The notes under the pieces are model-generated. The model saw nothing but the letters and a program-made list of their open reading frames with translations, did no database searches and was not told where the DNA came from. Shown here one piece after another: positions 39,392 through 64,000 of a stretch of DNA of 64,000 nucleotides. The stretch is taken from positions 186,001 to 250,000 of the forward strand of contig JAHHHK010000002.1 of assembly GCA_019359395.1 (NCBI GenBank), given 5' to 3'. Position numbers and translations under genes: made by a program. Within the stretch, counting starts at the first letter, position 1; each line of letters begins with the position of its first letter. The DNA comes from Komarekiella atlantica HA4396-MV6. GTDB taxonomy: Bacteria; Cyanobacteriota; Cyanobacteriia; Cyanobacteriales; Nostocaceae.

Positions 39392-40189
39392 TTACGACCA
39401 AAAAACTAAATCACCTCCCGGCATTTTTCCAATAAAAGAGCTAATTGTTATACGTTCTCCAATTCCTGGTAAGACTTCATGAAAATTACGGCTATTGAAG
39501 ATAACTAAATCTCCTGTAACTGGAATATTATGTTTTACTTCTGAGGTAGCTACTAAGGAGTGATCGTAGCCATACGAACTAAGAGTTTTATATTTTTCAT
39601 CTTCCGGCTGCCACTGCCGATTGTAGACTTTGCAGACGCCTCCTTGGCTAGGCGCTTTTACATAAAGATTCCATACTAGCTGTGAAGTAATATTTCCTAT
39701 TACCCAATCTGGAGCATCTAACCGCGCAAAGTCTATGTGTAACAAGGCAATATTAATATGACGTATCAATCCGGCAAAATAATACCCATAAGTTTCATTT
39801 TCATAAGCTATTTGTACTTTACCCGAAACATTCTGACGCAGAATTGTTGCCAAACGTTTTAGCGGGTCAAAAGATAAAGAAGTTACCTGATTATAAGTTT
39901 TTTTGGCTTTTTCAACCGCGTCAAAATATCCCAACTTATCCTTTTTTATATATTCATATTGAGTAATTCCAATTCTTCCTATTGGTGGTTCGACATTTTT
40001 ATAAAAATCAAAACCAACTTTTGCAATTGCCAGAGCTAGTTTATTACATTCTTCAGATGAAGCAAAATTAGAAATGCGAATTGATGGAATCTCGTTTCTC
40101 AGTAATGCTTGGAAATTTTCTTTGTTCATTTCGCAGTCATTTAAGGTTTGCCACTGAGTTGCTTTTAGCATGGGAACTTTCTCATTCAT
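39392..40189 (-). CDS. 2OG-Fe(II) oxygenase-like protein, second copy
   Basis: Encodes 265 residues. Iron-binding facial triad as HID in ALLHIDFARLD (about 152-154) and the distal His in NSRNFHEVLPG (about 239), with the 2-oxoglutarate-binding Arg in GERITISSFIG. Homologous over its full length to the protein encoded at 44537-45331; both end in FWS. It is the last gene of the cluster, 238 bp after the exporter gene. Likely hydroxylates an amino acid or the peptide; a free-leucine 5-hydroxylase role is possible for one of the pair, but this is inference. Confidence 0.75.
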   Translation of the reverse strand: MNEKVPMLKATQWQTLNDCEMNKENFQALLRNEIPSIRISNFASSEECNKLALAIAKVGFDFYKNVEPPIGRIGITQYEYIKKDKLGYFDAVEKAKKTYNQVTSLSFDPLKRLATILRQNVSGKVQIAYENETYGYYFAGLIRHINIALLHIDFARLDAPDWVIGNITSQLVWNLYVKAPSQGGVCKVYNRQWQPEDEKYKTLSSYGYDHSLVATSEVKHNIPVTGDLVIFNSRNFHEVLPGIGERITISSFIGKMPGGDLVFWS

Positions 40190-40427
40190 AATTTCTTGTA
40201 AATTAAGTTGTTGTTCAAATAGGTAAAGTTAAAGTTATTTTTTATCTTGTATTTAAGTTGTCAAAAACTTAGCGATCGCCATAATCAAAAAAAGGAACGT
40301 TGCCTCTGATATTTTGCGTAGAAAATTGGTTTTTCAGACGCGATAAATCGCGTCTCTACATGAGGGTTTGTGTCTCTAACTGAAATGTATTAGTTTATAA
40401 ATTGGATAATTTATTTTTTGGAGTTTA
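40190..40427. repeat. Spacer with perfect palindromic repeat (agacgcgat type)
   Basis: The hairpin agacgcgat-aa-atcgcgtct (40336-40355) followed by ctac is a copy of the dispersed cgtctctac family. It separates the exporter gene from the last oxygenase gene, which may therefore have its own promoter or be a later addition. Confidence 0.7.
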
Positions 40428-42443
40428 CTAAATTCTGATCCATTTTAATACTTTGGGATCTTTGTTATATCGATAGGTTAAGCTATCCCTAGTAGTGATA
40501 GATTCCCCTTTACTTGCCTTACTTCTAATAGTGGAAACTGAATAGTTTGTTAATGCATTCATTTCCTTATGAGAAAGCCTTTCACTTGTATTAATTTCTG
40601 ACTCAATTGGGGATTCATTATTAGGTAAAATATCTATACTGACTTCAGTATTTTCGGCAGTATTAGTGACAATTTCTTTTGCTTTTTGGAGTCGATAGTC
40701 TTGCACAGTCATCAGTTGCCAACTGGAATCTTGTGTAAGTTCCAGAACCCATTGATGATAATTAAATAAACTTTCTCGATGTCCAACACTAATAAATGTT
40801 GTTTTCTTCTCTTGCAACTGTTGATATAAATTACCTTCATTTCTTAAATCTAAAGCGCTCGTTGCTTCGTCTAAGATAGTAAAGCTAGGATGAGTAACTA
40901 ACAGTCGGGCAAAGGCAAGACGTTGTTGTTCTCCCAGAGATAAGATGTTTTCCCAAGGAACTTCTGTATCAAAGCCTTCAACTCGACTTAGTAAGTTTTG
41001 TAGGTTTACTTGTTGCAAAACGTCTTTGAGTTCGGCGTCGGTCATTTGACGATTTGTATTAGGATAAATTAACTGTTCGCGCAAAGTTCCTAAGATAATG
41101 TAAGGACGTTGGGGCAAAAATAAAACTTCATCTAGGGGAGGTCGTACTAAACGACCAGTTCCCGCATTCCACAAACCTGCGATCGCTCTTAATAAAGAAC
41201 TCTTACCTCGACCACTCGGCCCGACAATTAATAAACCTTCTCCTGGCTGAACATTCAATGACAAGTCTTCGACTATCACCTGTTCATAATTAGGTGTTTG
41301 TAGGGTGACATGCTCAAAAGTAAAATGATTTTCTTCTATTGTTTTAATCGTCCTAATGTTTTCAGGTTCTTTAGTTACTTCTTCTAACGCATCTGTAAAC
41401 TCAGATAAACGCTCAACATAACTAGAAAATCTTCCAGAAACGTTAAATTCTCGGATTAATTCTTCTAAAGCACCAGCAAACATATAGCAAGCTGTAGTCG
41501 CTTGTCCAACTTGTCCGAAATCAATTTCACCTCTAATATATAAAGGTGCGAGAACTACGAGTGCAATCAGTTCGATAACAGCCCGATATCCTCTATTAAA
41601 AATTTCCTTACTTCTTTCCCAATCAATCTTTTGTTTAATATCTTTTATCAGATTATTAAATCGGCGTTGAATTATATTTAGTTCCTGTTCTTCTCCTCGA
41701 AAAAAAGCTATCGACTCGGCATGATTGCGAACATGAGTTAGAGAATAACTATAATCAGCTTTAGCTTCAAGTTCTGCCTGATTGATTTTAATTAATTCTT
41801 GATTTAAGTAAATAGCAATAAAGTTACCTACAACTGTATAGATAATTAAAGCAATAGCTATCTGTTGCGAAATTGTCCAAACAACTATTAAAAAAGTGAT
41901 CATTTCCAGTACTTTCTCTAGGAAAGTAGCTGAAAAACTGAGGGCATTACCAGTAACAGGTTCAATTTCTTGAGCTAAACGCTGATCGGGATTATCAATA
42001 TCGGCTTTAAAATTAATTTTATAATAAGCACGTTTGTGCAAATATTTATTTAAAACATAATTATTGAGCCATTGATACCAATCCAGAGAAATTTTTTTTC
42101 TTACAAATTTAGTAAGTCCTACTAAAAGTGTTATTAAGATAAGTCCAACAGCGTAAAATGCTATAGTATAAGTAAATTTAGAAGCATCTTTTTCTTGAAT
42201 GATGACATCGATTAAATAGCGATGAATAAAACTATTAAAAGTAGTTACGCCTACAAGCGTGAAGATTAAAAATATTAGGAGAATCAGCATTCCCCAGGCG
42301 CGGATAACATCTGAAAACGCTCTTTCTCCTGGCTTGGTTGGATACCAATAAGGGCCAGCGATCGCTTTGACATTTTCCCAGAATCGGATAAAGTCTGAAA
42401 AAATATTTGTTGCGGGTTTAATTTGAACAACTTGAGTTGACAT
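40428..42443 (-). CDS. nosG: SbmA/BacA-like ABC exporter (NosG-type)
   Basis: Encodes 671 residues, a half transporter with N-terminal membrane domain (about 45-330, five or six helices) of the SbmA/BacA/YddA class (DWYQWLNNYVLNKYL, NPDQRLAQEIEPV) and a C-terminal ATPase: Walker A GPSGRGKSSLL (about 409), signature LSLGEQQRLAFARLL (about 508), Walker B FTILDEATSALD. A 90-residue C-terminal tail follows. It probably exports the peptide, as NosG is thought to do in nostopeptolide clusters. It is 34 bp from nosF, so part of the operon. Confidence 0.85.
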   Translation of the reverse strand: MSTQVVQIKPATNIFSDFIRFWENVKAIAGPYWYPTKPGERAFSDVIRAWGMLILLIFLIFTLVGVTTFNSFIHRYLIDVIIQEKDASKFTYTIAFYAVGLILITLLVGLTKFVRKKISLDWYQWLNNYVLNKYLHKRAYYKINFKADIDNPDQRLAQEIEPVTGNALSFSATFLEKVLEMITFLIVVWTISQQIAIALIIYTVVGNFIAIYLNQELIKINQAELEAKADYSYSLTHVRNHAESIAFFRGEEQELNIIQRRFNNLIKDIKQKIDWERSKEIFNRGYRAVIELIALVVLAPLYIRGEIDFGQVGQATTACYMFAGALEELIREFNVSGRFSSYVERLSEFTDALEEVTKEPENIRTIKTIEENHFTFEHVTLQTPNYEQVIVEDLSLNVQPGEGLLIVGPSGRGKSSLLRAIAGLWNAGTGRLVRPPLDEVLFLPQRPYIILGTLREQLIYPNTNRQMTDAELKDVLQQVNLQNLLSRVEGFDTEVPWENILSLGEQQRLAFARLLVTHPSFTILDEATSALDLRNEGNLYQQLQEKKTTFISVGHRESLFNYHQWVLELTQDSSWQLMTVQDYRLQKAKEIVTNTAENTEVSIDILPNNESPIESEINTSERLSHKEMNALTNYSVSTIRSKASKGESITTRDSLTYRYNKDPKVLKWIRI

Positions 42444-42477
42444 ATTCGAGAGATAAACTATATTTAATACGACTTTT

Positions 42478-43299
42478 TCAAAACATATTTCCTAATTGTT
42501 GAGTGCGGCTCAAAGCAGTAAGCACCGCATTGGAAATCACAGTTCGCATACCACCTTTTTCTAACTCGTAAAGACCAGCAGCAGTCACCCCTCCAGGACT
42601 CGTTACTTTGTTGCGTAAGACTGCTGGATGTTCGTCAGTTTGAAACATCAGTTCTACACTGCCAGCAATTGTATGCAATGTCAGTTCTTGAGCTTGTGCG
42701 CGAGTTAAACCCATCTGAACGCCAGCATCAATCATGGCTTCGATGTACAGAAAGATAAACCCTGTGCCGGCGCTACTTAAGGCCGTTGCCATATCGAGGT
42801 AATGTTCATTTTGGGTGGAAAATTCTTTGCCTAATGCTTGTAAAATGACTTGAGTATGCGATCGCTGTTGCTCTGTCACACTTGATGATGCGCTCCATAC
42901 TGTCGTTCCGCGACCAACTTGTACTGCAATATTTGGCATGGTGCGGACAATGGCAGGATGATTCAACCCTTCGCATAGAGATGCAATACTTACTCCGCCG
43001 ACGATACTAATTACTAAAGTATCAGGTGAGATTTTATCTTTCAGCATAGCCATCACAGAGGTTAAAACCTGGGGCTTTACTGCTAATATGGCGATAGATG
43101 CGCTTTGCAAAGCTTCTATATTGCTAGTTGTAGTATGTACTCCATATTCTCTTTCTAGATGTAGGCATCGTGTAGAAAGTGGGTCGCTGACTGTAACTAA
43201 GTCGGGTTGTTGAATGGTTTTTGTTGATAACAATCTACTGATTATCATTTCGCCCATTGTGCCACCGCCGATAAAGGCAATTTTTAAGTCTGTGAGCAT
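42478..43299 (-). CDS. nosF: Pyrroline-5-carboxylate reductase homologue (NosF-type)
   Basis: Encodes 273 residues. ProC fold with dinucleotide site AFIGGGTMGEMII (about 8-20) and the family signature VTSPGGVTAAGLYELEKGGM (about 229-248); LSSAGTGFIFLYIEAM is the substrate/dimer helix. ProC makes proline; NosF reduces 3-methyl-pyrroline-5-carboxylate to 4-methylproline in nostopeptolide producers. Position beside a NosE-like dehydrogenase and NRPS genes, rather than alone, supports the NosF role. Specificity for the methylated imine cannot be read from the sequence. Confidence 0.87.
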   Translation of the reverse strand: MLTDLKIAFIGGGTMGEMIISRLLSTKTIQQPDLVTVSDPLSTRCLHLEREYGVHTTTSNIEALQSASIAILAVKPQVLTSVMAMLKDKISPDTLVISIVGGVSIASLCEGLNHPAIVRTMPNIAVQVGRGTTVWSASSSVTEQQRSHTQVILQALGKEFSTQNEHYLDMATALSSAGTGFIFLYIEAMIDAGVQMGLTRAQAQELTLHTIAGSVELMFQTDEHPAVLRNKVTSPGGVTAAGLYELEKGGMRTVISNAVLTALSRTQQLGNMF

Positions 43300-43410: not shown

Positions 43411-44517
43411 TTAAGATAGATTGGGTTGAATTACAGCTTTTAATACTGTGCCTTGCTCGACATCTGCTAGTGCTTGATTAATTTCTTTTAGTGTGTATGA
43501 ACGGCTAATTATGCTTGACCAAGCAATATTGTTTTTGGGGTTGCTATGGCGTTTTAGTAATTCAATCGTTCTGTAAAAATGGCTGAAGTCGATTCCCCAC
43601 GTTCCGCGAATATCGATATGTTTGAGATTAATTTCTAGGTGGGGGTTGATGAGAATTTCACCGGTGTTTGTGTAATGTCCGACGATCGCATAACGACCTC
43701 CATTTCTCGTCATATTTAAGCCTTCTTTGACAGCGATGGGAATGCCTGTGGCTTCAATAGTGACATCTGCACCGTGTCCGTGGGTTAATTCCAAAACTCG
43801 CTCAATATGTTGTTGTGGATTGTTAGCATTAATCACAACGGTTTCATCTACGCCGAAGGATTTGGCAACTAGTAAGCGGCTTTCAAATTTATCGATGACT
43901 ATTACTTTGCCTGCACCTGAGAGTAAAGCTAGAATTGCCGCACTCAAACCTACGGGGCCGCAACCCTGCACTACAACAACATCACCAATTTGAATCTGCG
44001 CTCTATCGATAGCGTGTAGTGCTGTTGGTAAAGCGCATCCCCCAGCAATAAACTGTTTTGGTGAAACTTCTTCAGGTAAAGTGAGAACTTTCACCCCTGG
44101 TTTGAGATAAATCAATTCAGACCAACCACCTAGTAACCCATCTTTAGCTGAGTAGGTGACACCATAAACCTTGCGTTGCGGACAGCGAGTGGATGCTTTG
44201 GCTACTAGACAATACCAGCAGTTGTAACAGGTTTCGTGGACATCGAGAAAAGTAGCGATCGCTCCTGGCTGAATTAATTTACCATTGACATCATTAACCT
44301 GTCCGCCTGTCTCCACTACACGACCGACTGAGAAGTGACCGGGGATAATTGGATAGGGTACTCCCTGTAGGTGTCCGCGGAGTAAATGTACATCAGTGCC
44401 GCAAACCTCACTATATAAGGTTTCAATAATGATTCCACCCTTTTCTAAGATAGGGTTTGGTAATTGTTGCACTTCAACTGGGTTATTAGGTGCAGTCATC
44501 ACAGCTGCTAAGGACAT
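43411..44517 (-). CDS. nosE: Zinc-dependent alcohol dehydrogenase (NosE-type)
   Basis: Encodes 368 residues of the medium-chain (MDR) family. Catalytic-zinc Cys in YSEVCGTDVHLLRG (about 39) and His in PGHFSVGRVVE (the usual GHE is GHF here), structural-zinc cysteines CYNCWYC and RC (about 97-111), and NAD(P) site VQGCGPVGLSAAILAL (about 184-200). NosE oxidises 5-hydroxyleucine to the aldehyde that cyclises to methyl-pyrroline-carboxylate. The adjacent NosF-like gene supports this reading. Ribosome binding site gaggtaat precedes the ATG. The gap to the upstream oxygenase gene is 19 bp. Confidence 0.87.
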   Translation of the reverse strand: MSLAAVMTAPNNPVEVQQLPNPILEKGGIIIETLYSEVCGTDVHLLRGHLQGVPYPIIPGHFSVGRVVETGGQVNDVNGKLIQPGAIATFLDVHETCYNCWYCLVAKASTRCPQRKVYGVTYSAKDGLLGGWSELIYLKPGVKVLTLPEEVSPKQFIAGGCALPTALHAIDRAQIQIGDVVVVQGCGPVGLSAAILALLSGAGKVIVIDKFESRLLVAKSFGVDETVVINANNPQQHIERVLELTHGHGADVTIEATGIPIAVKEGLNMTRNGGRYAIVGHYTNTGEILINPHLEINLKHIDIRGTWGIDFSHFYRTIELLKRHSNPKNNIAWSSIISRSYTLKEINQALADVEQGTVLKAVIQPNLS

Positions 44518-44536: not shown

Positions 44537-45331
44537 TTAAGACCAAAAAATAATTTCACCATTGGGAAGTAAGCCAATCATGGAGGTGAAAGCTACACGC
44601 TGTCCGTGCATCGGCTCAACATAGTGAAAGTTCGTTGTATTAAAAAGTAATACATCACCGATGTAAGGTTGAAAAGCGATCGCATCGGCATCGGCAATTA
44701 CTGTATCGTTATATCCGTATGAATCGAGTTTATATTGCTCATCTTCTGGTTTCCATCTGCGATCGTAAATGCACGTTTTACCATGATTGTTGTCAGACAA
44801 TTTCAAATACAAAGTCCAGGAAAGTTGAGTAGTAATTGTACAAACTTCCCATTGATTTTGCTCCAAAGGCGCGAAATCTATATGAATTTGAGTACCATGC
44901 TCTATTTTTCTGATCAGTCCTGCATAATAACTTCCGTAGTCCGGTTCTGAAGCAATTCGCACCTTCGCGCCACACTCTCGAAATTTCGCTATTATGCGCT
45001 CTAATGGATTGAAAGAAGCTGCAAAAATCGAGTTTCTTAATTTAGTTGCTCTTTCTACTTCTTGAAAATAAGCTGCTTTACTAATGCTGTTATATTCAAA
45101 TACTGTGATCCCAACTTTTTCAATTTTAGGAGTGACATCTTCATAAGCATTAAAATTGAGCAATTGAGATTGAGCATATAACATCTCACACTCTTCAGGT
45201 GTAGCAAATTCCTTTAAGCGAATCAGAGGAATTTGCTGTTCAAGCAGCATTTTTAAAGATTCTGTAGTTAAGGGATACTCTTGTTTTTGATCCCACCCCA
45301 TTGATTTAATCTGATTAGAAGTAGCAGCCAT
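44537..45331 (-). CDS. 2OG-Fe(II) oxygenase-like protein, first copy
   Basis: Encodes 264 residues. Facial triad HID in GTQIHIDFAPLEQ (about 151-153) and His in NTTNFHYVEPMHG (about 239), with a following Arg in GQRVAFTSMIG. Lies directly between the terminal NRPS gene and nosE. Since nosE-nosF need 5-hydroxyleucine, this gene is the positional candidate for the leucine hydroxylase; known leucine 5-hydroxylases (LdoA, GriE) are also Fe/2OG enzymes, but of a different subgroup as far as motifs show. Paralogue at 39392. Confidence 0.75.
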   Translation of the reverse strand: MAATSNQIKSMGWDQKQEYPLTTESLKMLLEQQIPLIRLKEFATPEECEMLYAQSQLLNFNAYEDVTPKIEKVGITVFEYNSISKAAYFQEVERATKLRNSIFAASFNPLERIIAKFRECGAKVRIASEPDYGSYYAGLIRKIEHGTQIHIDFAPLEQNQWEVCTITTQLSWTLYLKLSDNNHGKTCIYDRRWKPEDEQYKLDSYGYNDTVIADADAIAFQPYIGDVLLFNTTNFHYVEPMHGQRVAFTSMIGLLPNGEIIFWS

Positions 45332-45452: not shown

Positions 45453-48400
45453 TTATTGACTGTTTGCTTGTGCTTGCTGAATGCAAACTTTCAACTTTTC
45501 AGCTAATACCTGAACATGCGGTTCAGCCATCATCGTAATATGATTACCTGGAACAAAATGCATATCTACTGGTTCACAAGAAAACTCACTCCAGCCCCAG
45601 GTAGAATCCTGAGAAATCTCAGAAAACCTGCTAGCTAACCGTTCCGGGGGAGTTTCGCTAGCACGTAGAAGTGTAATTCGACCGGGATAAATCTGTTGTG
45701 GTACATAATTAATCAGAGATAGAGAATTTGCTTTCAAAGCTTGCACCATATTTTTCAACTGCGTAATTTCAGCGTGAGGAGGCAGCATATTCACCATTTT
45801 TAAACGCTGTAAAACGTATTTTAGTTGCTCATTTTCAGATAGCGATCGCAACACCTCATCAGAAATATCTATATTCGTTGATAGAGAAACTTCTACTGTT
45901 TTAATCAGTTCAATCAACCACCGAGCATTATCCCAATCAAGACGCTCAATACGTGCTTGTTTGTCTTTAGAGGTTGGTGCTGACATATCAATCATCACAA
46001 CTAAAGCAACTTCATGTCCTTGATGATGCAACTGAGTAGCCATTTCAAAAGCTACTATACTTCCTAAAGAATGCCCTCCTAAAAAGTATGGCCCTTGCGG
46101 CTGAACGGTTTGCATTGCTTGGATATATTGACTAGCCATATCCTTAATTCGAGTGGCTGGCTCTAAATCTAAATTGTTTGCTTGAAAACTGTATAATGGC
46201 TGATCACCTCCTAAATAACGCCCTAAATGATATAAGTAGAAAGGCTCACCACCAGCGCCGGGAATGCAGAAGAAAGGTAATTTTGCACCGTTTGGCTGAA
46301 TTGGAATTAGACAAGATGAATTTGAATAATCTGAATCTATTTGTAAAATTGTTGCTAACTGTTCAATAGTTGGATTTTGAAAGAGACTTGTTAAACTCAA
46401 ATCTTTACTAAATTGCTGCTTAATTTGAGCTATTAAATAGGGAGCTAAAAGCGAATGACCACCTAAGTCAAAAAAGTTATCTTGTACTCCTACTTTGTCA
46501 ACTTTCAGAATTTTTGACCAGATTTGTATTAGTTGCAGTTCTAATTGGTTACGGGGTTCGACAAATGTATCTAAGTTATTAATGTTAGAAGGTGTAGGCA
46601 AAGCGCGGCGGTCTATCTTGCCGTTGGGTGTTAGAGGTAAGCTATCTAAGAAGACAAAACTAGAAGGCAGCATGTAAGTAGGCAACTTTGTGGAGAGAAA
46701 GCGCCGGATTTCATTAATGGTGAGTGTTGAATCTTGATTTGAGATGATGTAAGCCACCAAGCGTTCTTCATGTGCAGTCACTACAGTTTGATGCACAAAT
46801 GGGTGTTGTGCTAAGACTGTCTCAATTTCTCCAAGCTCAATGCGTGTACCGCGAATCTTGACTTGATAATCTTGGCGACCGAGAATTTCTAAACAGCCAT
46901 CGGGAAGATAGCGACCGCGATCGCCTGTATAATACAGCAAATCTTGGTCGTCATTGCGAAAATGGTTTTTGACAAACCGAGAGCGCATTTCTTCTTTGGC
47001 GTTAATGTAGCCCAAACTGCGGAATGGTGTTCTTAAAACAATCTCGCCTGGTTCGCCAATGCCGCATAGTTGGCGATTTGCACCCAAAACTAGAGCTTGA
47101 GTTTCCGAAAGTGTCCGTCCTACTGGCTGTACTCCTGGTGATGGTTGCTTAGGTACTTGGTAATAACATTTCGCCAAAGTTGTCTCTGTCGGCCCGTACA
47201 GATTAACGATTTCACCTGCTTGGATAAAGGCTTTTCGCCATTGCTGTACAAGTGTCTCTTTAAGAGGTTCTCCAGCTAAGAATAACCAGCGTAAGTTATG
47301 CAGAGATACTTCTGAAGGTACATTAGCCAGCCATGATTGCGCTAGGGAGGGAACTGTGTGCAGAACAGAAATTTGCTCGCGTTCTAAGTAACGCAAAATT
47401 TTCGTCGGTTCTAACTTATCTTCTGGTGATGGCAGACATAAGGTTGCACCACTAGTCAAAGGTAAGAAAATATCTCTGAGGACGACATCAAAAGAAAGTC
47501 CTGTTAATTGGGCAATACGGTCTTGTTGATTAATTCCAAAGGTTTGTCTTTGCCAGTTAAGAAAATGCGCCATCCCTTTATGACACCCTAACACTCCTTT
47601 AGGAACGCCAGTAGTACCAGAAGTAAAGAAAATATAGGCTGCATCATCACCAGATATTTCAGGCAAGGGTATTGTATGACTGCTTTCTAAAGGATTAATA
47701 GCTGCTGCTGTGTCTGGATTTACACAGATAACAGTTAAAGACTGCCATATCTCCCTATCTTCTGGGGGTTGACTATTTACATGTAATATGAATCTAGCTT
47801 TAGCTTCTTTGAGCATCAGCTGTTGGCGTTGGATAGGAAGTTGCGGATCTATAGTAAGTAGTACTCCTCCACTCAAGAGTACAGCGATCGCACTAGCAAT
47901 CAATCCAAAACTTGATGTTCCGTATACAGCGACTACATCTCCCCGTTGAATTCCGTGACTCAGCAGCACCTTAGCTAAAGCTTGAGAGCTTTTGCCTAAT
48001 TCGCCATAGTTCCAAGCGTGAGTTCCTTGACGCACTGCTGAGAGTTTTGGGGCGTTATTTACCCAAGCGGTAAACGTTGTTGTGACTAATTCGTATTCTG
48101 GTTGTGGTATGGCTGTTGTGGGATCTGGCAGTAAAAGTCGGGCTTGTGATGCGACAAGAGAATAAGAAGCGATATTACTATCAGCATCGACAACAATTTG
48201 ATTCAATAAATGATGGAATTGTTGCACCATTTCCACCATTCGTGCTGAAGTAAATAGGTCAGCATTATACACCAATTGCAGCGTTATTCCTTGTTCGTAT
48301 TCTGCAACATACAAGCTTAAATCAAACTTAGAAGCTGCTTCTGACATTAATATCGGTTCTACAGACAACCCAAAAAGTTCGAGTTGGGTGTTTGCCAAAT

Positions 48401-53280: not shown

Positions 53281-56200
53281 TCATATTGCGATTTCCTCTC
53301 TATCGAATGCATCTAACTTTACTTCTTTTTCTAGCTTTAGTACTATTTCAGCTATTGTAGGAGATTCAAACAAACTGGCAACAGATAATTTAATAGAAAA
53401 AGCATTACGTAATCGTGACAAAACTTGAACAGCTATTAAAGAATCTCCTCCTAAATCAAAAAAATTATCATGAATTCCTACCCGCTGAATCCCTAACAAA
53501 TCTTGCAAAATATCGGCAATTTTTTGCTCAATTTCATCGCGAGGAGCTATATATAAATTTGGTAAATCAGGTCTTGAGTGGAGTGCAGCTAATTTTTCTG
53601 GCTGAAAAACATCCAGCTTTCCTTGTAATGAAACTTCTAATTCTTTCTGCCCAGATTTAGCGCTAAATGCGGCTGATGTAGAAGCCACAGCCATAATAAT
53701 TTGATGCTCTAAAGCTTCAGTTTCAGGAAACGCGACAACTCGAACAAAATCTTGCTTTCGTAATGCCTCAAACCACTGTTCTTTAACAATAAAAGGCTGA
53801 CCTGGGTTGCGTCTTTTATCATCTAAAGGTTTCAACAGCAAACCCCAAGTGATATCAAAGTCTATTTTTGGCTGAGTTATTTCCCACACTAAAAGGAAGC
53901 CGCCAGGAGCTAATAAAGAACGTACATGGTGGAGTGTTCGATCTATATTTTGAGTGGCGTGCAACACATTAGAAGCGATGATTACATCAAAACTGTACTT
54001 CTCAAACCCTTGCTCAGTTGGCGACTTGTCTATGTCTAGTAATCGATATTCAACAAATGGATAATCCTTAAATTTCTGTTGCGCTTGAGTCAAAAAGCCG
54101 CTACCAATATCAGTAAAAGTATAGTTAGTTTCTTTAGGCGGCAACACAGTTAATAATGCTTGCGTAGTCACACCAGTACCCGCACCAATTTCTAAAATTC
54201 TCAGATTAACGGATGATGGCAATGACTTAACCACCTGTTCCAAGCTTGAGCGCAAGATAGAATTGTAGTAAGAAATTAAAGGAGATTCTGAATATGAACC
54301 GTTATTTTCTTTTTGGTAAACCAGTTCATTAAAAATCTCTAATGGTTCTTGTTCGCCAACAACAATAGCAGCTAAATTTTCACCACAGCGTTGTACTAAA
54401 TCTAAATCTACTAAAGATGAAGTAGCAAACCTCGCTCTCACTTCTGCTAAATGTTCGTTAAGATAATCTGGCGAACATGGCACTAATTCAGTAAATAATC
54501 CTTCTTGTTGCTGTAATTGTCCTTGCTCGACTAATATTTGCAACCATCTAGATAACAATTGCTGATAGCGGGGAGAAATATGGTATTGCGCTAATAAATT
54601 CTCCAAAGAATACTTTTCTTTGGCATTGCTAAAAGCCCCTAATTGCTGGAATGCAGAGTTAATGTAAGCTATACATAAACGGTCTAACCATTGTCTGTTT
54701 TCTTGATACGTGAATTCGTTAAGTTCTGCATTTATAGTATTTGCTTGTTTGTGACCTGCTTGTGTCAGCAATGTCCACAATTGTGATGTTGGGTATGAGG
54801 TTTGCAACTGTTCCCAAGCTGCTTTTTGTGGGGGATTAATCCAATAGCGATCGCGTTCAAAAGGATAAGTCGGTAAAGGAAGACGATAATACTCATCCTG
54901 ACTATAAAATCCCAACCAATCTACTTTCACCCCAGCTAACCAGAGTTGACCAAATGTATTGAATAAAATACGGCGATCGCATTCTTTTTCTTGAGGATGA
55001 CGTAACGAAGTTAAAACAGTTTGTGTGGCTGCTTTGTCTGGATGTCTTTTGGCTAATGTAGCTAATATGCGTCCCGGCCCCACTTCTAATAAGACTTGCT
55101 CAGGCGTTGCTAAAAATTTCTCGACACCTTGAGCAAACAGCACTGTAGAACGCAGATGTTGAGCGTAATACTCAGGATTCGTGGCTTGTGTAACTGTAAT
55201 CCAAGTACCAGTTAGGTTGGAGATATAAGGAAGTTTTGGCGGATTTAAAGTAACTTTTTTAACTCGTTCTGCAAACGCCTCTAAGATTGGTTCCATCATT
55301 TGGGAATGGAAGGCATGGGAAGTATGCAGACGGCGACATTCAATCCCTTGAGTAGCAAGCTGATTTTGTAATGTATCTATCGCTGCTGTAGAACCGGAAA
55401 CTACACACTGCGAAGGTTGATTAATTGCGGCAACAGAAAGTTCTGAACCTAACAGGGATTTTACCTTGTCTGCGGGCAGAGGAACAGAAAGCATCGCCCC
55501 CGTGGGAAGTTGCTGCATCATCACCCCGCGTGCTGCTACCAGAGATAAGGCATCTTCTAGTGTAAAAACTTCTGCTAAAGTTGCTGCTACATACTCGCCA
55601 ATACTATGACCGATCGCAGCTTGTGGCTGAATTCCCCATGACTGCCATAATTTAGCTAGGGCGTACTCAATTACAAAAATAGCAGATTGAGCGATCGCAG
55701 TTTGTTGAAGTTGCTTTGATACCTCATCAATCTTTTCGTCATTAGGGTAAAGAATATGACGTAAATCAAGCTCTAAAAGAGGTTTAAGAAATTCACAGCA
55801 ATAATCAACTTGTTCTTTAAATAATGTCTCACTTTCATAAATTTCCCGTGCCATGTTAACGTACTGAGAACCTTGACCGGGAAACATAAACACAACAGCT
55901 CGTTCTATTATTTCTGTGTAATAAACTGCTGAACTACTGAGAGCATTAACAGCATCTTCTAAATCTTGACAAATTAACATTCGTCGATAATTAAAACCCC
56001 GACGACCACTATTAAGCGTATAAGCTACATCACCTAAATTAAGTTCTGGATGCTCTTTTAAATGCGTAATTAAATTAGCCGTCGCCTTCTCAAGCGCCTT
56101 CTCACTTTTAGCCGATAGACATAACAGAACATATTTACTGTTAACTGTTAACTGTTGACTGTTAACTGATATTGCTTCTTCTAAAATCACATGAGCATTA

Positions 56201-57483: not shown

Positions 57484-57485
57484 CT

Positions 57486-60400
57486 TTACCTTTTTCTCTG
57501 AGAGCGATATTGTTGTCTAGATTGTAATTGCTGGTTTCTTAAAGCTTTAACTTCGCTATGAGATTGAGTACGATAATTATTTTGCCTAACTGTTATATTT
57601 TCTTTTTGAATTTTAGCACTTAAATATTGGCTTAAACTCTGTATATTGGGATAATTAAACATATCAATTATTGACAATTCTAAACCAAATTCCTCTTGCA
57701 ATTGCTGATTAATTTTTACTAGTAGTAACGAATGACCTCCTAGCTCGAAGAAATTATTATAAATTCCTATCTTTTCTACCGCTAATGCTTTTTGCCAAAT
57801 GTCAGCAATAATTCTTTCTACTTCTGTATTTGGCATTACATAATCTGATAATTCTTGTTGTAAATCTGGGTTAGGCAGAGCGCGACGATCTACTTTACCG
57901 TTGGGTGTCAAAGGTAAAGACTCTAGTATCACAAAAGCAGTAGGTAACATATACCCAGGCAGTTTTTCGGCAAGGAACTGACGCAGTTCCCCCGTTGTGA
58001 GTGTCACGTCTTTTTGCGGCACTACGTAAGCGATTAAACGCTTACTACCCAAAGTTTCTTCACGAGCGATAACACAAGATGTCTGCACATCATCATGTTG
58101 GCTCAGTGCTGCTTCAATTTCTCCCAACTCAATGCGGAAACCCCGAATTTTTACTTGATTGTCAATACGTCCTAAGTATTCAATATTGCCATTTGGTAAA
58201 TAGCGTGCTAAGTCTCCAGTTTTATATAAAAGTGCTGAGTGCTGAGTTCTCCCCCTGCTCCCTCCGAAGGGATTAGAGATAAATTTCTCTTGTGTCAACT
58301 CTGGACGGTTGAGGTAGCCTCTTGCTAACCCTACGCCACCGATGTGTAGCTCTCCTGGCACACCCACAGGTACAGGTTGCAAATTTTCATCTAAAATGTA
58401 AACTTGTGTGTTGGCGATCGCTTTCCCAATAGATATTTTTTCATCTTCAAGGGTGCATTTGGCGATTGTTGCACACACAGTAGTTTCTGTAGGGCCATAA
58501 GCGTTAAAGAAGTTTCTGCCAATAGACCACTGCTCAATCAATTCCGCAGAACAAGCTTCTCCCGCGACAATTATTGTTTGCAGTGTCGGCAGTTCCTCCA
58601 TTGGCATAACTGCTAACGCTGATGGTGGTAACGTGATATGTGTAATCGAATAATTGCGTAATTTGTCAATTAACGGCTTTCCTGGCAATATAGAATCTTT
58701 AGTTCCCAGGTAAAGCGTTCCACCTGAACTCAACGCCATTACGATCTCCCAAATAGAAGCATCAAAACTGAATGAGGCAAACTGAAGAATGCGACTATCA
58801 CTAGTCAAGCCAAAAGTTTGAATCTGAGCTTGAGCTAAGTTGCACAGTCCCTTATGCTCAACCATTACGCCTTTCGGTCTACCTGTAGAACCGCTCGTGT
58901 AAATCACATTAGCTAAATGGAAGGCTCTAGCTCCACTTATTGGATTATCTTGATTGTTTTGGGCAATTTTTTCCCAGACTTCATCTAAAAAGACTTGTTT
59001 TGCTTGATGCTGTGGAAGTTTGTTAATAAGTTGTTGCTGAGTTAACAGTAGCGAAACTTGAGCATCTTCTAGCATGAAACTCAAGCGTTCGATAGGATAC
59101 TCTGGGTCGAGTGGTACATACGCTCCACCTGCCTTGAGAATCCCCAACAGTCCCACTATCATTAAGAGCGATCGCTCCACACAAATAGCCACCAGCGTAT
59201 CTGGTTTTACACCCAATATGCGTAAGTAATGAGCTAACTGATTAGCACGACAATTCAACTGGTGATATGTTAGAGACGCAACATGTTGCGTCTGTACATC
59301 TTCATACACCACCGCCACAGCATCAGGTGTACGCTGAACCTGCTCCTCAAACAACTGATGGATACACTTATCAAAGGGATAATCCACCGATGTATTATTC
59401 CAATCAACCAATAACTGCTGCTGCTCGACTGCTGTCAGCAGAGGTAATTGAGAAATTCGCTCTTGAGGATTGGCGACAATTCCTTCCAGCAACGTTACAA
59501 AATGACCAATCATCCGTTCGATTGTGCTGGTATCAAACAAGTCAGTATTGTACTCCCACACACCCATCAATCCTTGGGTAGTGTTTTCCATCGATAAAGC
59601 CAAATCAACCTTTGTAGTTGTACTTTCCACTGGCAATGAACTAACAGTTAACCCAGTAAGTTCTACTTCCTGTAGGGGTGCATTCTGAAGGTTAAACACT
59701 ACTTGAAACAGTGGCGTATGTCCCAGATCCCTTTCTGGCTGCAATGCTTCCACTAACATTTCAAAAGGCAAATTCTGATGAGCATACGCTCCTAAAGCTA
59801 CTTCTCGAACGCGAAGGAGTAATTCGCTAAAACTGGGATTGCCTGCTGTATTAGTACGCATAACTAAGGTATTGACAAAAAAGCCAATTAACCCTTCTAT
59901 TTCGCTGCGATCGCGGTTGGCAATTGGCGAACCCACCAAAATATCTGATTGTCCCGTGTAGCGATAAAGTAGAGTATCAAATGCTGCTAACAGCGTCATA
60001 AAGAGAGTACAACCTTGCTCCTGACTCAGTTTTACCAACCTATCAGTTAAATCAACTGAGAGCGCAAACTTCTGATATGTCCCTGCGAAAGTCTGCACAG
60101 CAGGTCTTGGTCGGTCTGTAGGTAGAGATAACAAAGCTGGTGCATCTTTTAGTTGCTCTTGCCAGTACGAGAGTTGGCTTTGCAGTACATCTCCTTGCAA
60201 CAATTGTCTTTGCCAAATTGCGAAATCTGCGTATTGAATCGGCAATGGTGCTAAAGGTGACGGCTGACCTTGAGAATAAGCGTTGTACAGTGCTGTTAAT
60301 TCTTGAACAAACACACCTCTTGACCAGCCATCAAAGACAATGTGATGTATGAAGACTAATAAAGCGTGTTCTGTTTCTGACAGTACTACTAATGTTGTCC

Positions 60401-63400
60401 CGATCAATGCTTCAGTTGCTAAGTCAAAGGTTTGTTGCGCTTGTTGTTGCGCTATTTGTTGCAAAGCAATCTCTTTCTCACTTGCGGATAAATGCTGCAA
60501 GTCAACAATTGCAACTGTCCTCTGTTCCCTGTTCCCCGTTCCCTGCGATGCACTGCGCCGCCCTGAGCTTGTCGAAGGGAGCTTGTCGAAGTGTTCCCTG
60601 ATGATTTGAGTCGGTTGCCCATCAACTGTAATAAAGTTAGTACGTAACGCTTCGTGACGATGAATAATTTCAATTAAGCTTTGTTGTAGTGCGGCTATAT
60701 TCAGAGTTCCGACTAGACGCAAAGCTACAAGTAAGTTGTAGAAGGCGCTGTTCGGGTTTAACTTATCTAAAAACCATAGCCGTGTTTGAGCAAATGACAG
60801 CGGTAATTCTGCATCCTTGGCTCTGGGTAGGATGGCTGATGCTGTTAGATTCTGTTGCTGTAACTGTTGAATATTTTGAGATAATTCTGCGATCGTTGGT
60901 GCAGCAAATAAGCTCCGCAATGGTAATTCTACATTCAAGGTGGTACGCACGCGCGAAACCAGTTGCGTTGCTAGTAGCGAGTGTCCGCCAAGCTCAAAGA
61001 AGTTATCATGAATGCCCACTCGCTCTACTTTTAGCACTTGCGCCCAAATTGCTGACAGAATTTCTTCAATTGGGTTACGTGGGGTAACATACTCATCCGA
61101 TAATTGGCTGTGTAAATCAGGTGCGGGCAAAGCGCGGCGGTCTAGTTTACCGTTGGGGGTTAGCGGTAGAGTATCCAAGATAACTATTGCACTTGGGATC
61201 ATATACTCTGGTAACTTTGACTTTAGGAAGCTACGCACTTCGCTAACTCTAAGTGTTTGCTCTGGTTGCGGCACAATGTAAGCGACCAGCCGTTTATCAC
61301 CTGGGGTATCTTCGCGAACAACCGCACAAGAAGCTTGTACATCACTCAGTTGACCGAGTATTGCTTCAACTTCGCCCAACTCAATGCGGAAACCCCGAAT
61401 TTTAACTTGATTATCTATGCGTCCTAAAGATTCAAGCTTCCCGTCAGGTAAATAACGTGCTAAATCCCCTGTTTTGTACAGCCTTTCAGATTCTAATTTT
61501 GAATTTTGAATTTTGAATTTTGAATTGTTAAAGGGATTGGGAATGAATTTCTCTTGTGTTAACTCAGGACGGTTTAGGTAGCCTTGAGCTAAAAGCACAC
61601 CAGCAATGTAAATTTCTCCTGGTACGCCAACGGGTACAGGTTGTAAATATTTATCTAAAATATATATCTGTGTATTGGCAATGGGACGACCAATCGAAGG
61701 AAGCAACGGCCAAGTTTCTACTGAATTGGGTAAAGTAAAACTGGTGGCTAAATGGCTTTCTGATGGCCCGTACTGATTGTGCAATGTACAATCACTGAGT
61801 TTATCCAACCATTGAGAAATCGCTCCAGTAATCTGCAACTTATCCCCAGAGGTAATGATTTCCTGCAAATGAGTATTTACTAAGTCATTACTAATAGCGA
61901 CTTCCGCTAGTTGCTGTAAGCCAACAACGGGAAGAAACATTCTCTGGATGGCTCTTTCTTGGAGAAAATCTAACAAAGCCGAGGTATCGTGGCGCAATTC
62001 CTCTCCAATTAAAAACAATGTGCCGCCAGAACACCAGGTAGTAAATATTTCTTGGAAGGAGACATCAAAGTTAATCGAAGCAAATTGCAGGGTTTTTGCT
62101 CCACGAGAAATTTTGAGATTGTCCCGATGCCACAAGACATGATTGCAAAGGGCAAGCTGACTCATTGCTATACCCTTTGGTTTGCCTGTAGAACCAGAAG
62201 TGTAAATTATATAAACTAAGTTATTGGCTTGTACGCCAGAAATTATGTTGTCCTGACTGCACTTAGAAATCTCTTCAGCATCAGCATCTAAGCAAACCTT
62301 GTACTGAGCGACTTGTGCCGAGCGGAGCCGAGGTAAGTCGAAGTGAAGTTTTGCCTGATTTGGGGGGAGCCTATCAATAAGTCGCTGTTGAGTCAGTAAA
62401 AGTTTAACTTGAGTATCTTCTAAAATAAAGCTCAAGCGATCGCTAGGATACTCTGGGTCAAGTGGTACATAAGCTCCCCCCGCTTTCAGAATCCCCAGTA
62501 ATCCGATGACCATTTCTAAAGAACGCTCTACACACAGACCGACTAGAATATCTGGTTTTACACCCAATGAGCGTAAGTAGTGCGCCAACTGGTTAGCGCG
62601 GTAGTTTAATTCATAGTATGTTAGAGACGCAACATGTTGCGTCTGTACATTTTCAAACTCCACTGCCACAGCATTAGGTGTCAGTTCCACCTGTTCTTCA
62701 AACAATTGATGGATAGACTTATGTAGTGGATAATCTACGCCTGTATCGTTCCACTCAACTAATAACTGTTGTTGCTCAACTTCTGTCAACAAAGGCAATT
62801 GTGAAATTTGCTGATTAGGGTTAGTAATAATACTTTCAAGCAATGTCACAAAATTACCAGTCATGCGCTCAATGGTAGACGCATCAAACAAGTCAGTATT
62901 GTACTCCCACCACCCCACTAGTCCAGTACTTGTACTGAGCGGAGTCGAAGTAGCAGTGTTGTGCATGATTAAAGTTAAATCAAACCTGGAAGTTGTGCCT
63001 TTGATTGGCAATGAACTCACAGTGAGCTTAGTCAGTTCTAATTCAGACATGGGCGCATTCTGGAGAACAAACATTACCTGAAACAGTGGTGTATGGCTGA
63101 GGTTTCGTTCTGGCTGTAATGCTTCCACCAACATTTCAAACGGTAAGTCTTGATGAGTGTATGCTTCCATTGCCATTTCGCGAACACGACCCAGCAATTC
63201 ACTAAAACTGGGATTGCCTGACAAATCGGTACGCATGACTAAGGTATTGACAAAAAAGCCAATTAACCCTTCTATTTCGCTGCGATCGCGGTTTGCAATG
63301 GGCGAACCTACTAAAATATCTTCTGTACCCGTATAGCGATAAAGTAGAGTATCAAATGCTGCTAACAAGGTCATAAAAAGAGTACAACCTTGTTCTTGGC

Positions 63401-64000
63401 TGAGTTTTGTCAGCTTACTAGTTAGTTCAAGAGAAAGTGCAAACTCTTGATGTGTCCCGTTGTAAGTTTGCACAGCCGGTCTTGGTCGGTCTGTAGGTAG
63501 GGACAACAAAGCAGGTGCATCTTTTAGTTGCTGTTGCCAGTACGAGAGTTGGCTTTGCAGCACATCCCCTTTTAATCGGTTTCGCTGCCAAATTGCGAAA
63601 TCTGCGTACTGAATTGGTAGTGGCGCTAAGGGTGAGCCTTCACCTTGAGAATAAGCATTGTACAGCGCTGCTAGTTCTTGGACAAACACACCCATTGACC
63701 AGCCATCAGAGACAACATGGTGCATACACACTAACAAGACGTGTTCTGTCTCATTCAGCACTACTAATGTCGCCCTGATTAATGCTTCCTTCGCTAGGTC
63801 AAAAGGTTGAATAGCTTGCAATTGCGCTAATTTATGTGCAGCAATTTCTTGTTCGGCTACTTCGACTTCGCTCAGTACAAGTGTAGATAAATACTTCAAG
63901 TCAACAACTGATACTGTCCAAGAAGTAGGTGGAGATGAGGGAGATAAGGGAGATGAGGGGGATATTGATATTACTTTATCCTCTCCCCTGCTCCTTGCTC
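57486..64000 (-). CDS. NRPS: (partial) C-A-PCP-C-A-PCP, 5' end beyond window
   Basis: The frame is open to the window edge, so the N-terminus and perhaps earlier modules are missing; the TTG at 63899 is not the true start. Domains by position: C (HHVVSDGWS, about 63705), A1 (YTSGSTGKPKG, about 62190; pocket DVQVISQLA, Pro-like), PCP (about 60990), C (HHIVFDGWS, about 60330), A2 (YTSGSTGRPKG, about 58895; pocket DAWSIAAVC, Phe-like), PCP (about 57750). The end is a very basic tail (RNQQLQSRQQYRSQRKR) that may dock to the PKS KS, which starts 2 bp later. At least seven dispersed repeats are inserted in frame. Confidence 0.93.
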   Translation of the reverse strand, partial: ARSRGEDKVISISPSSPLSPSSPPTSWTVSVVDLKYLSTLVLSEVEVAEQEIAAHKLAQLQAIQPFDLAKEALIRATLVVLNETEHVLLVCMHHVVSDGWSMGVFVQELAALYNAYSQGEGSPLAPLPIQYADFAIWQRNRLKGDVLQSQLSYWQQQLKDAPALLSLPTDRPRPAVQTYNGTHQEFALSLELTSKLTKLSQEQGCTLFMTLLAAFDTLLYRYTGTEDILVGSPIANRDRSEIEGLIGFFVNTLVMRTDLSGNPSFSELLGRVREMAMEAYTHQDLPFEMLVEALQPERNLSHTPLFQVMFVLQNAPMSELELTKLTVSSLPIKGTTSRFDLTLIMHNTATSTPLSTSTGLVGWWEYNTDLFDASTIERMTGNFVTLLESIITNPNQQISQLPLLTEVEQQQLLVEWNDTGVDYPLHKSIHQLFEEQVELTPNAVAVEFENVQTQHVASLTYYELNYRANQLAHYLRSLGVKPDILVGLCVERSLEMVIGLLGILKAGGAYVPLDPEYPSDRLSFILEDTQVKLLLTQQRLIDRLPPNQAKLHFDLPRLRSAQVAQYKVCLDADAEEISKCSQDNIISGVQANNLVYIIYTSGSTGKPKGIAMSQLALCNHVLWHRDNLKISRGAKTLQFASINFDVSFQEIFTTWCSGGTLFLIGEELRHDTSALLDFLQERAIQRMFLPVVGLQQLAEVAISNDLVNTHLQEIITSGDKLQITGAISQWLDKLSDCTLHNQYGPSESHLATSFTLPNSVETWPLLPSIGRPIANTQIYILDKYLQPVPVGVPGEIYIAGVLLAQGYLNRPELTQEKFIPNPFNNSKFKIQNSKLESERLYKTGDLARYLPDGKLESLGRIDNQVKIRGFRIELGEVEAILGQLSDVQASCAVVREDTPGDKRLVAYIVPQPEQTLRVSEVRSFLKSKLPEYMIPSAIVILDTLPLTPNGKLDRRALPAPDLHSQLSDEYVTPRNPIEEILSAIWAQVLKVERVGIHDNFFELGGHSLLATQLVSRVRTTLNVELPLRSLFAAPTIAELSQNIQQLQQQNLTASAILPRAKDAELPLSFAQTRLWFLDKLNPNSAFYNLLVALRLVGTLNIAALQQSLIEIIHRHEALRTNFITVDGQPTQIIREHFDKLPSTSSGRRSASQGTGNREQRTVAIVDLQHLSASEKEIALQQIAQQQAQQTFDLATEALIGTTLVVLSETEHALLVFIHHIVFDGWSRGVFVQELTALYNAYSQGQPSPLAPLPIQYADFAIWQRQLLQGDVLQSQLSYWQEQLKDAPALLSLPTDRPRPAVQTFAGTYQKFALSVDLTDRLVKLSQEQGCTLFMTLLAAFDTLLYRYTGQSDILVGSPIANRDRSEIEGLIGFFVNTLVMRTNTAGNPSFSELLLRVREVALGAYAHQNLPFEMLVEALQPERDLGHTPLFQVVFNLQNAPLQEVELTGLTVSSLPVESTTTKVDLALSMENTTQGLMGVWEYNTDLFDTSTIERMIGHFVTLLEGIVANPQERISQLPLLTAVEQQQLLVDWNNTSVDYPFDKCIHQLFEEQVQRTPDAVAVVYEDVQTQHVASLTYHQLNCRANQLAHYLRILGVKPDTLVAICVERSLLMIVGLLGILKAGGAYVPLDPEYPIERLSFMLEDAQVSLLLTQQQLINKLPQHQAKQVFLDEVWEKIAQNNQDNPISGARAFHLANVIYTSGSTGRPKGVMVEHKGLCNLAQAQIQTFGLTSDSRILQFASFSFDASIWEIVMALSSGGTLYLGTKDSILPGKPLIDKLRNYSITHITLPPSALAVMPMEELPTLQTIIVAGEACSAELIEQWSIGRNFFNAYGPTETTVCATIAKCTLEDEKISIGKAIANTQVYILDENLQPVPVGVPGELHIGGVGLARGYLNRPELTQEKFISNPFGGSRGRTQHSALLYKTGDLARYLPNGNIEYLGRIDNQVKIRGFRIELGEIEAALSQHDDVQTSCVIAREETLGSKRLIAYVVPQKDVTLTTGELRQFLAEKLPGYMLPTAFVILESLPLTPNGKVDRRALPNPDLQQELSDYVMPNTEVERIIADIWQKALAVEKIGIYNNFFELGGHSLLLVKINQQLQEEFGLELSIIDMFNYPNIQSLSQYLSAKIQKENITVRQNNYRTQSHSEVKALRNQQLQSRQQYRSQRKR
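59274..59293. repeat. In-frame palindrome at the start of A2, upstream NRPS
   Basis: Identical 20-nt palindrome to 51279-51298, encoding the same QTQHVAS insertion at the start of the A domain. Confidence 0.9.
60521..60599. repeat. In-frame dispersed repeat in the second C domain, upstream NRPS
   Basis: Same composite (ttccctg-type heptamers plus the gcttgtcgaag unit) and same C-domain loop as 49232-49315, encoding KLPSTSSGRRSASQGTGNRE. Confidence 0.85.
61494..61527. repeat. In-frame heptamer repeat in A1, upstream NRPS
   Basis: Four units of the gaatttt type encode NNSKFKIQNSKLES in the A6-A7 loop just before the YKTGD motif. A different heptamer family from that at 50236, but the same structural site. 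Confidence 0.85.
62299..62348. repeat. In-frame dispersed repeat in A1, upstream NRPS
   Basis: The cttgtactgagcg and gtgccgagcggagccgaggt units encode HFDLPRLRSAQVAQYKV, lengthening the N-terminal subdomain of A1 before the YTSGSTG motif. Related units lie at 62925 and 63854. Confidence 0.75.
62625..62644. repeat. In-frame palindrome at the start of A1, upstream NRPS
   Basis: Third copy of the agacgc...gcgtct palindrome in an A domain, encoding QTQHVAS. Confidence 0.9.
62925..62956. repeat. In-frame dispersed repeat in the first C domain, upstream NRPS
   Basis: The unit agtacttgtactgagcgg with gagtcgaagtag encodes TATSTPLSTSTGL near the C-terminal end of the first visible C domain. Confidence 0.75.
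63854..63884. repeat. In-frame dispersed repeat in the first C domain, upstream NRPS
   Basis: The unit ggctacttcgacttcgctc with agtacaag (minus strand reads STLVLSEVEVAEQ) lies in the C domain loop where the KLPSTSSG-type insertion sits in the other C domains. A further purine-rich tract (63930-63963, encoding Ser/Pro repeats) follows upstream. Confidence 0.75.

Follow-up and report, generated by a model that had tools for sequence, protein, structure and literature searches.

A probable minutumamide-type branch of the nostopeptolide family in Komarekiella atlantica HA4396-MV6

Minutumamides A1, A2, B1, and B2 have been attributed to the min cluster of Nostoc minutum NIES-26 and N. linckia NIES-25 (Ishida 2025, PMC12184294). 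As described there, this cluster combines a three-module NRPS, a C-methylating PKS, and a two-module NRPS carrying a thioesterase (TE) with methylproline genes, an exporter, and the polyketide-tail enzyme MinA. The nos clusters of nostopeptolides A1-A3 and KVJ3 share the NRPS-PKS-NRPS order, and the nosE and nosF genes are described as making 4-methylproline. A hydroxylated form of this residue, 3-hydroxy-4-methylproline (Hmp), occurs in the heinamide (laxaphycin) and nostopeptin/insulapeptolide (cyanopeptolin) pathways. The heinamide gene LxaR has been linked to Hmp in a review that calls the order of the enzymes undefined (PMC8471579).

Here we describe a related hybrid cluster found in a 64,000-nt stretch of DNA (the window) from K. 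atlantica HA4396-MV6. The genes and module order given for the window in an initial annotation, which proposed a nostopeptolide-like cluster, were confirmed as open frames on the minus strand with the corresponding Pfam and TIGR matches. That annotation also placed the upstream part outside the window, and indeed the cluster continues for about 8.6 kb into the adjacent contig sequence, to window coordinate 72646. This extension adds one further NRPS2 module and the one-module NRPS1. The genes follow one another in this order:

67892-72646 (beyond the window), minus strand: NRPS1, 1584 aa, C-A-NMT-PCP, Phe code DAWTVAAVC
57486-67889 (in-window part 57486-64000), minus strand: NRPS2, 3467 aa, three C-A-PCP modules
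beyond the window, minus strand: Thr module of NRPS2, code DFWNIGMVH
about 61560-62702, minus strand: proline-type A domain of NRPS2, code DVQFISQLA
about 58296-59351, minus strand: Phe A domain of NRPS2, code DAWTIAAVC
53281-57483, minus strand: PKS, KS-AT-CMeT-ACP, AT motif HAFH, SAM motif ILEIGAGTG
45453-52967, minus strand: NRPS4, docking domain followed by C-A(Tyr, DASTIAAVC)-PCP-C-A(DVRHFALLA)-PCP-TE
44537-45331, minus strand: ox1, 2OG-Fe oxygenase, Pfam PF22814 (WelO5 family)
43411-44517, minus strand: nosE-like zinc dehydrogenase
42478-43299, minus strand: nosF-like member of the pyrroline-5-carboxylate reductase family, TIGR00112 above cut-off
40428-42443, minus strand: nosG-type ABC exporter, PF06472 and PF00005
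39392-40189, minus strand: ox2, second 2OG-Fe oxygenase, Pfam PF22814 (WelO5 family)

With the upstream sequence added, the assembly line is complete. It consists of an NRPS block, a single PKS module, and a TE-bearing NRPS block accompanied by nosE, nosF, and an exporter, as in the nos/min group. Further upstream lie a TnpB-like fragment, an AbrB-family gene, and a histidine kinase, all unrelated to a MinA-type PKS, and NRPS1 therefore looks like the first gene of the cluster.

The adenylation codes predict N-methyl-phenylalanine (N-MePhe), Thr, a proline-type residue, Phe, a C-methylated ketide, Tyr, and an acidic-type residue, in that order. For the in-window part, this agrees with the residues listed initially (Pro-like, Phe-like, methylated ketide, Tyr-like, and one unknown). 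Applied to other genomes, the same procedure reproduces the residue orders of nostopeptolide A, nostopeptolide L, nostocyclopeptide, a nostopeptin-like cyanopeptolin, and both heinamide lines as published. We consider it likely (a probability of roughly 70%) that the cluster represents, in complete form, a minutumamide-type branch of the nostopeptolide family, with the following product and steps. NRPS1 would load an acyl starter and then add N-MePhe, and NRPS2 would add Thr, Hmp, and Phe. The PKS, whose AT motif HAFH we take to be of the malonyl type, would extend Phe by malonyl-CoA, C-methylate it, and keep the ketone, which would give 4-amino-3-oxo-2-methyl-5-phenylvalerate (Amopa); no ketoreductase (KR) is present among the Pfam matches of this protein. 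NRPS4 would then incorporate Tyr followed by an acidic residue (most likely Asp), and ring closure by its thioesterase, probably at the hydroxyl of Thr, would yield a five-residue ring. The predicted product is thus acyl-N-MePhe-[Thr-Hmp-Amopa-Tyr-Asp], with a computed unacylated core of C45H54N6O12 (871.3872) and, for the butyryl form, an m/z of 941.4291 [M+H]+. D-residues were set aside in this prediction, as the cluster has no epimerisation-type domain; extra C-type domains after a PCP are found in the nostopeptolide A, nostopeptolide L, spumigin-type, and heinamide-type lines.

The code of module 6, DVRHFALLA, is read as acidic, probably specifying Asp, because of a formula difference and the codes of microcystin synthetases. 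A phmmer search of this A domain against the PDB returned general adenylation domains and no clue to the substrate. The formula difference was obtained by subtracting Pba, Thr, Hmp, and Amopa from the minutumamide formula, which leaves C13H18N2O7. Among pairs drawn from 25 residues, only Tyr plus Asp and Phe plus hydroxy-Asp fit this remainder. Tyr plus Asp restores the minutumamide formula C45H53N5O12, the last two minutumamide residues being derived in this way rather than from names in the text of PMC12184294.

From Thr onward, the layout fits that of the minutumamides, a likeness that rests on their published description, as no min cluster record was present in the genome collections scanned. 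The modules for Thr, Hmp, and Phe, the C-methylating PKS, and the two modules with TE are all found, with Hmp and the last residue assigned by prediction, and the shared ring would be Thr-Hmp-Amopa-Tyr-Asp. The difference lies ahead of Thr, where a MinA PKS for a phenylbutyrate-type tail is missing and NRPS1 occupies its place. The module order, initially described as new, is not so in the part that builds the ring, which is minutumamide-like; relatives with the same last NRPS occur in five other genomes. A known product with the same order and codes, which the initial annotation regarded as grounds for refutation, was encountered, at the level of prediction, for the ring alone. The product is probably undescribed, as suggested at the outset, although predictable. 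Literature searches for four of the adenylation codes and for a nostopeptolide with N-methylphenylalanine gave no match.

What distinguishes the cluster from the published compounds is its first module, in which N-methyl-Phe is combined with a starter-type C domain. This class is assigned from a tree in which the C domain of NRPS1 clusters with the C domains that open NosA-type and cyanopeptolin lines (7/7 tips, support of 1.0), including those of genomes with the nostopeptolide A layout (G384) and the nostopeptin/insulapeptolide layout (G363). Among the genes next to the cluster, none was recognised as acyl-activating. The genome holds other NRPS loci (29 condensation-domain matches), and the slot before the Thr module is filled otherwise in other relatives (210A). 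NRPS1 could accordingly be a remnant or belong to another pathway, with a product nearer to minutumamide whose tail comes from elsewhere. We regard this as very improbable given the tree placement, the 2 bases that separate the end of NRPS1 from NRPS2 on the same strand, and the recurrence of the NRPS1-NRPS2 pair in Brasilonema angustatum HA4187-MV1 and, as two pieces, in UCD121.

B. angustatum HA4187-MV1 is among the five other genomes that encode relatives with the same last NRPS. Its cluster has the same architecture from NRPS1 to the exporter, with identities of 78% (NRPS2), 85% (PKS), and 81% (NRPS4), and differs in carrying N-MeTyr in place of N-MePhe and the code DVQFIAHLA. No ox2 ortholog was found in that genome, and we know of no product for its cluster.

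A plain nostopeptolide was rejected as the product. The cluster shares with the nos systems the acyl-starter C domain and the nosG-type exporter, and its PKS is 79% identical to that of G384 over the first 1205 aligned residues. However, it has a shorter second NRPS block, an N-methylated first residue, a Phe-derived ketide, and a DVRHFALLA terminal module. Nostopeptolide A proper is built by nine amino-acid modules (Ile-Ser-MePro-Leu-PKS-Leu-Gly-Asn-Tyr-Pro), whereas six amino-acid modules with other codes are present here. NRPS4 shows 58% identity to the two proteins of the nostopeptolide A layout (G384), compared to 79-82% for four relatives among the five with DVRHFALLA; the remaining one (UCD121), an incomplete piece, is absent from the seven best NRPS4 matches listed.

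The proposal that the cluster carries its own 4-methylproline genes is supported by the presence together of a Leu 5-hydroxylase-like gene, a Zn dehydrogenase gene, and a P5C reductase gene (the LdoA, NosE, and NosF set), with ox1 as the putative LdoA counterpart. The nosE-like protein is 93% identical to nosE of G384. Of 12 other genomes, 11 have nosE next to ox1, as do 23 of 26 loci. The HID ligand motif of ox1 is kept in all 11 aligned sequences, and these features point to ox1 as a putative L-leucine 5-hydroxylase of the 4-methylproline route. The exporter had been called SbmA-like, a loose label for an ABC exporter with its own ATPase; the seven proteins that match it best in related clusters show 74-86% identity. 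The second oxygenase, ox2, is 40% identical to ox1 and was found at 83% identity or more in 7 of the 19 genomes searched, including its own. Halogenation by these two WelO5-family proteins was ruled out, as both have HxD (HID). In WelO5-type halogenases, HxG replaces HxD. A structure model of ox2, with a mean pLDDT of 32.8 from a six-row alignment, was not used for any reading.

The proline-type residue is probably Hmp rather than the 4-methylproline named initially. DVQFISQLA occurs in 6/6 ox2-holding clusters versus 0/13 lines that lack ox2, although the ISQ domains form a single clade (support of 0.858) and are not independent events. The 13 lines exclude a DVQFIAQLA domain in another 210A cluster (C12), two DVQFMAQVV domains (210A and UCD121), G309, and G330, as well as further proline-type domains from genomes that were already represented. 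A Westiellopsis genome (G396) has S301 (ISH) and lacks ox2. The counterpart of ox2 in the heinamide-layout genome (G330), which was compared in place of the deposited LxaR, is 83% identical, and ox2, putatively LxaR-like, may supply the 3-hydroxyl of Hmp. G330 carries its ox1-nosE-nosF-ox2 set about 0.4 Mb away from the NRPS lines, and LxaO-P-Q-R is described in a like arrangement (PMC8471579). An ISQ domain does not accompany ox2 in every genome, since G330 shows none among its three best matches. Possibly its position-10 domain serves heinamide B, for which Pro, MePro, or Hmp is reported at that position.

Because the shared ISQ code may reflect descent instead of specificity, and nosE and nosF make 4-methylproline, the third residue might be plain 4-methylproline, with ox2 modifying a different residue or the completed peptide. 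This is unlikely: ISQ occurs at the Hmp-bearing position of the nostopeptin/insulapeptolide line in G363, which like G330 holds orthologs of ox1 and ox2, and the code and ox2 co-occur in three scaffolds. The same ring position carries Hmp in the minutumamides as described (PMC12184294), and LxaR is linked to this residue.

For the origin of Hmp, our favoured reading is a route from leucine that precedes cyclisation. Leucine would be hydroxylated at C5 by ox1 and at C3 by the paralogous ox2; NosE would oxidise the resulting 3,5-dihydroxyleucine, the product would cyclise, and NosF would reduce it to Hmp. A wider proposal, which we put at somewhat below even odds, combines this route with movement of ox2 and the DVQFISQLA A core as a cassette into the minutumamide-type, cyanopeptolin, and nostocyclopeptide lines. 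A less likely but quite possible alternative to the route is that ox2 acts only once the ring has closed, on free or carrier-bound 4-methylproline rather than on leucine or 5-hydroxyleucine. Clusters with ox2 hold it in addition to a complete ox1-nosE-nosF set, which without ox2 is enough where the described product has plain 4-methylproline. Against this stand the kinship of ox2 with ox1, whose presumed substrate is leucine, and the reviewed finding that feeding 4-methylproline to the heinamide producer brought no increase in the Hmp-containing peptide (PMC8471579).

For a ketopeptide that is probably undescribed, the cluster allows a specific prediction down to the mass. It also suggests that different units can be exchanged in the exocyclic slot of the minutumamide/nostopeptolide line, with a polyketide tail (MinA) in one case and an N-methyl-aromatic module in the other (here and in B. 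angustatum). Finally, it offers a testable link between the DVQFISQLA code and ox2 for the rare residue Hmp. If confirmed, this code would allow genome miners to separate hydroxymethylproline from methylproline.

Following the contig (353,558 bases of a 7.78-Mb genome) upstream of the window, as the initial annotation had proposed, recovered the whole cluster, with NRPS1 and the rest of NRPS2 lying past the window edge. The NRPS-PKS-NRPS order described from the window, together with nosE, nosF, an exporter gene and two oxygenase genes, is borne out by open frames that carry these domains on the minus strand (window numbering):

67892-72646, minus: NRPS1, 1584 aa, C-A-NMT-PCP
57486-67889, minus: NRPS2, 3467 aa, three C-A-PCP modules
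53281-57483, minus: PKS, KS-AT-CMeT-ACP
45453-52967, minus: NRPS4, C-A-PCP-C-A-PCP-TE
44537-45331, minus: ox1, 2OG-Fe oxygenase, inferred Leu 5-hydroxylase
43411-44517, minus: nosE
42478-43299, minus: nosF
40428-42443, minus: ABC exporter
39392-40189, minus: ox2, second 2OG-Fe oxygenase

Pfam matches include TubC-type docking domains at the starts of NRPS2 and NRPS4, none on NRPS1, and no KR in the PKS. In a FastTree phylogeny the NRPS1 C domain groups with the C domains that open the lines of G384, G363 and four others (one clade, 7/7 tips, support 1.0), and we infer a short acyl cap at this start. Past NRPS1 lie a TnpB-like fragment (148 aa, L011:2933-3379), an AbrB-family gene and a histidine kinase. 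Elsewhere in the window are an apparently full-length TnpB of the IS605 OrfB family (3914-5056) and a 963-aa protein (26853-29744) joining glycerol-3-phosphate-acyltransferase, pyruvate-phosphate-dikinase and PEP-utilising domains, an arrangement of which we know of no earlier example.

Adenylation codes were taken from an alignment by motif position, with residue calls by GrsA position number and specificity name:

M1: DAWTVAAVC, Phe, with N-methyltransferase
M2: DFWNIGMVH, Thr
M3: DVQFISQLA, proline type
M4: DAWTIAAVC, Phe
M5: DASTIAAVC, Tyr
M6: DVRHFALLA

In M6, R and H stand at the positions typical of acidic-residue domains in microcystin synthetases. As a control, the identical procedure was applied to genomes known here from genes alone, and at the level of gene layout it returned published residue orders: nostopeptolide A for G384 (Ile-Ser-MePro-Leu-PKS-Leu-Gly-Asn-Tyr-Pro), nostopeptolide L for G374 (Thr-Ser-Phe-PKS-MePro-Thr-Ile-Gln-Pro), nostocyclopeptide for G383 and G327, nostopeptin/insulapeptolide for G363 (X-ISQ-Leu-Ahp-Ile-NMeTyr-Ile/Val, where ISQ denotes DVQFISQLA) and both heinamide lines for G330.

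A search of 388 genomes of the order (E<=1e-20) matched ox1 in 14, including the window's own and G368 (a 32% match), and therefore 12 other genomes carry an ox1-type gene; nosE adjoins it in 11 of these. A pattern-based scan of wider genome contigs gave 26 loci, and in 23 of them nosE lies within the stretch retrieved. The exceptions are L067, which shares a contig with G363, whose nosE is on another contig, and the proteobacterial L084 (Chromobacterium alticapitis) and L085 (Pseudomonas mangiferae), whose ox1-like oxygenases are 46-47% identical and whose retrieved flanks gave no match to nosE or nosF.

Among 19 genomes picked for ox1-type genes, and thus not a random sample, ox2 was found at >=83% identity in seven, own included (G000, G330, G363, G388, G389, G390 and G393). 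The proline-type domain reads DVQFISQLA in all six clusters with ox2 beside the NRPS line. This code appears in 0/13 methylproline-type lines without ox2, judged at cluster level (G384, G383, G327, G344, G374, G298, G058, G392, G391 and CT11a, whose genome has ox2 on another contig) or genome level (G394, G395 and G396); the Westiellopsis G396 has DVQFISHLA. G330 is a counter-case, having ox2 but ISQ in none of its three best-matching domains. Since ISQ domains, spread over three scaffolds, form one clade (7/7 tips, support 0.858; six domains, one counted twice as two HMM pieces), the association does not represent six independent events; a single clade across these scaffolds suggests that the adenylation core and ox2 were transferred together. 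The cluster has its own nosE and nosF, as first annotated, but the association favors 3-hydroxy-4-methylproline (Hmp) over plain 4-methylproline, and the M3 residue is probably Hmp. Two nostocyclopeptide-type layouts with ox1, nosE, nosF and ox2 adjoining, on Brasilonema sp. CT11 C27 (L164/L165) and Rhizonema sp. NSF051 C920 (L163/L166), read Tyr-Gly-Gln or Asn, then Ile-Ser-ISQ-Phe; their products are predicted to be Hmp-containing nostocyclopeptides.

C3 of Hmp matches C3 of leucine. The oxygenases ox1 and ox2 are paralogues (40% identical), and alignments show HxD kept in both. In the route reported for 4-methylproline, LdoA yields (2S,4S)-5-hydroxyleucine, which NosE oxidises before cyclisation and reduction (PMC5676206). 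For heinamides, whose layout G330 has, a review states that position 10 of heinamide B accepts Pro, MePro or Hmp and that LxaR participates in making Hmp; it places the Leu 5-hydroxylase, Zn dehydrogenase and P5C reductase (LxaO-P-Q) outside the heinamide cluster (PMC8471579). This siting fits G330, where ox1-nosE-nosF-ox2 are grouped ~0.4 Mb from the NRPS lines. Hydroxylation of 4-methylproline itself by ox2 is a live rival, but adding 4-MePro to the heinamide producer gave no rise in the Hmp peptide (PMC8471579). Because of this feeding result, the paralogy, the kept HxD and the C3 correspondence, we favor with moderate confidence that ox2 would act on leucine or 5-hydroxyleucine before ring closure.

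NRPSs ending in DVRHFALLA occur in five relatives. Brasilonema angustatum HA4187-MV1 shares the window architecture, with N-MeTyr, and UCD121 agrees as far as two separate contig pieces reach. Nostoc sp. FACHB-152 (L147-L149, C104) has Phe-E-Thr-ISQ-Tyr-PKS-Phe-DVRHFALLA-TE (E, epimerisation-type domain), with ox2. The Brasilonema sp. CT11 line includes PKS genes; Thr and proline-type modules are absent from it. The Nostoc 'Peltigera membranacea cyanobiont' 210A line (L159/L160, C1) is of minutumamide type, with a 523-aa adenylation-type protein before Thr-ISQ-Phe-PKS; its PKS is split over two overlapping frames (KS; AT-CMeT-ACP). Two more lines related to nostopeptolide lie together on CT11 C351 (L150-L153): Thr-IAHLA-Phe-PKS-DTEDIGSVI-DARHFSLLV-TE and PKS genes-Phe-Tyr-PKS-Tyr-DVRHFALLA-TE. 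A nostopeptolide-like line in G344 (L043-L045) has the loading code of the G298 spumigin-type loader (VGVWIAASG), then Ile-Ser-DVQFVAQLA-Phe-PKS-DVQFIAHLA-DAENLGAIT.

In the literature searched, which left most subscription journals outside, minutumamide turned up in a single paper and nostopeptolide had no match together with N-methylphenylalanine, and the product may already be described in those journals. Among the matches listed from 2021 onward that name nostopeptolide or nostoweipeptin, no title describes it.

Minutumamides A1/A2 (C45H53N5O12) are cyclic pentadepsipeptides for which Ishida and colleagues name Thr, Hmp, Amopa (Phe extended by a methylated ketide) and, as the side chain, 4-phenylbutyrate (PMC12184294). 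Subtracting the parts named there leaves C13H18N2O7, which among all pairs from 25 residues fits Tyr+Asp and Phe+hydroxy-Asp only; adding Tyr+Asp back regenerates C45H53N5O12 by calculation. With its last two residues taken from this formula difference, the minutumamide ring is matched by the window ring line at the level of prediction, because M5 has a Tyr code, M6 has the R and H presumed to be of acidic type, and the leftover formula fits Tyr+Asp. The side-chain PKS MinA has no counterpart in the window cluster, where NRPS1 with its N-methylating Phe module takes that slot. For this reason the cluster lies outside the minutumamides in the strict sense, yet it should work like one.
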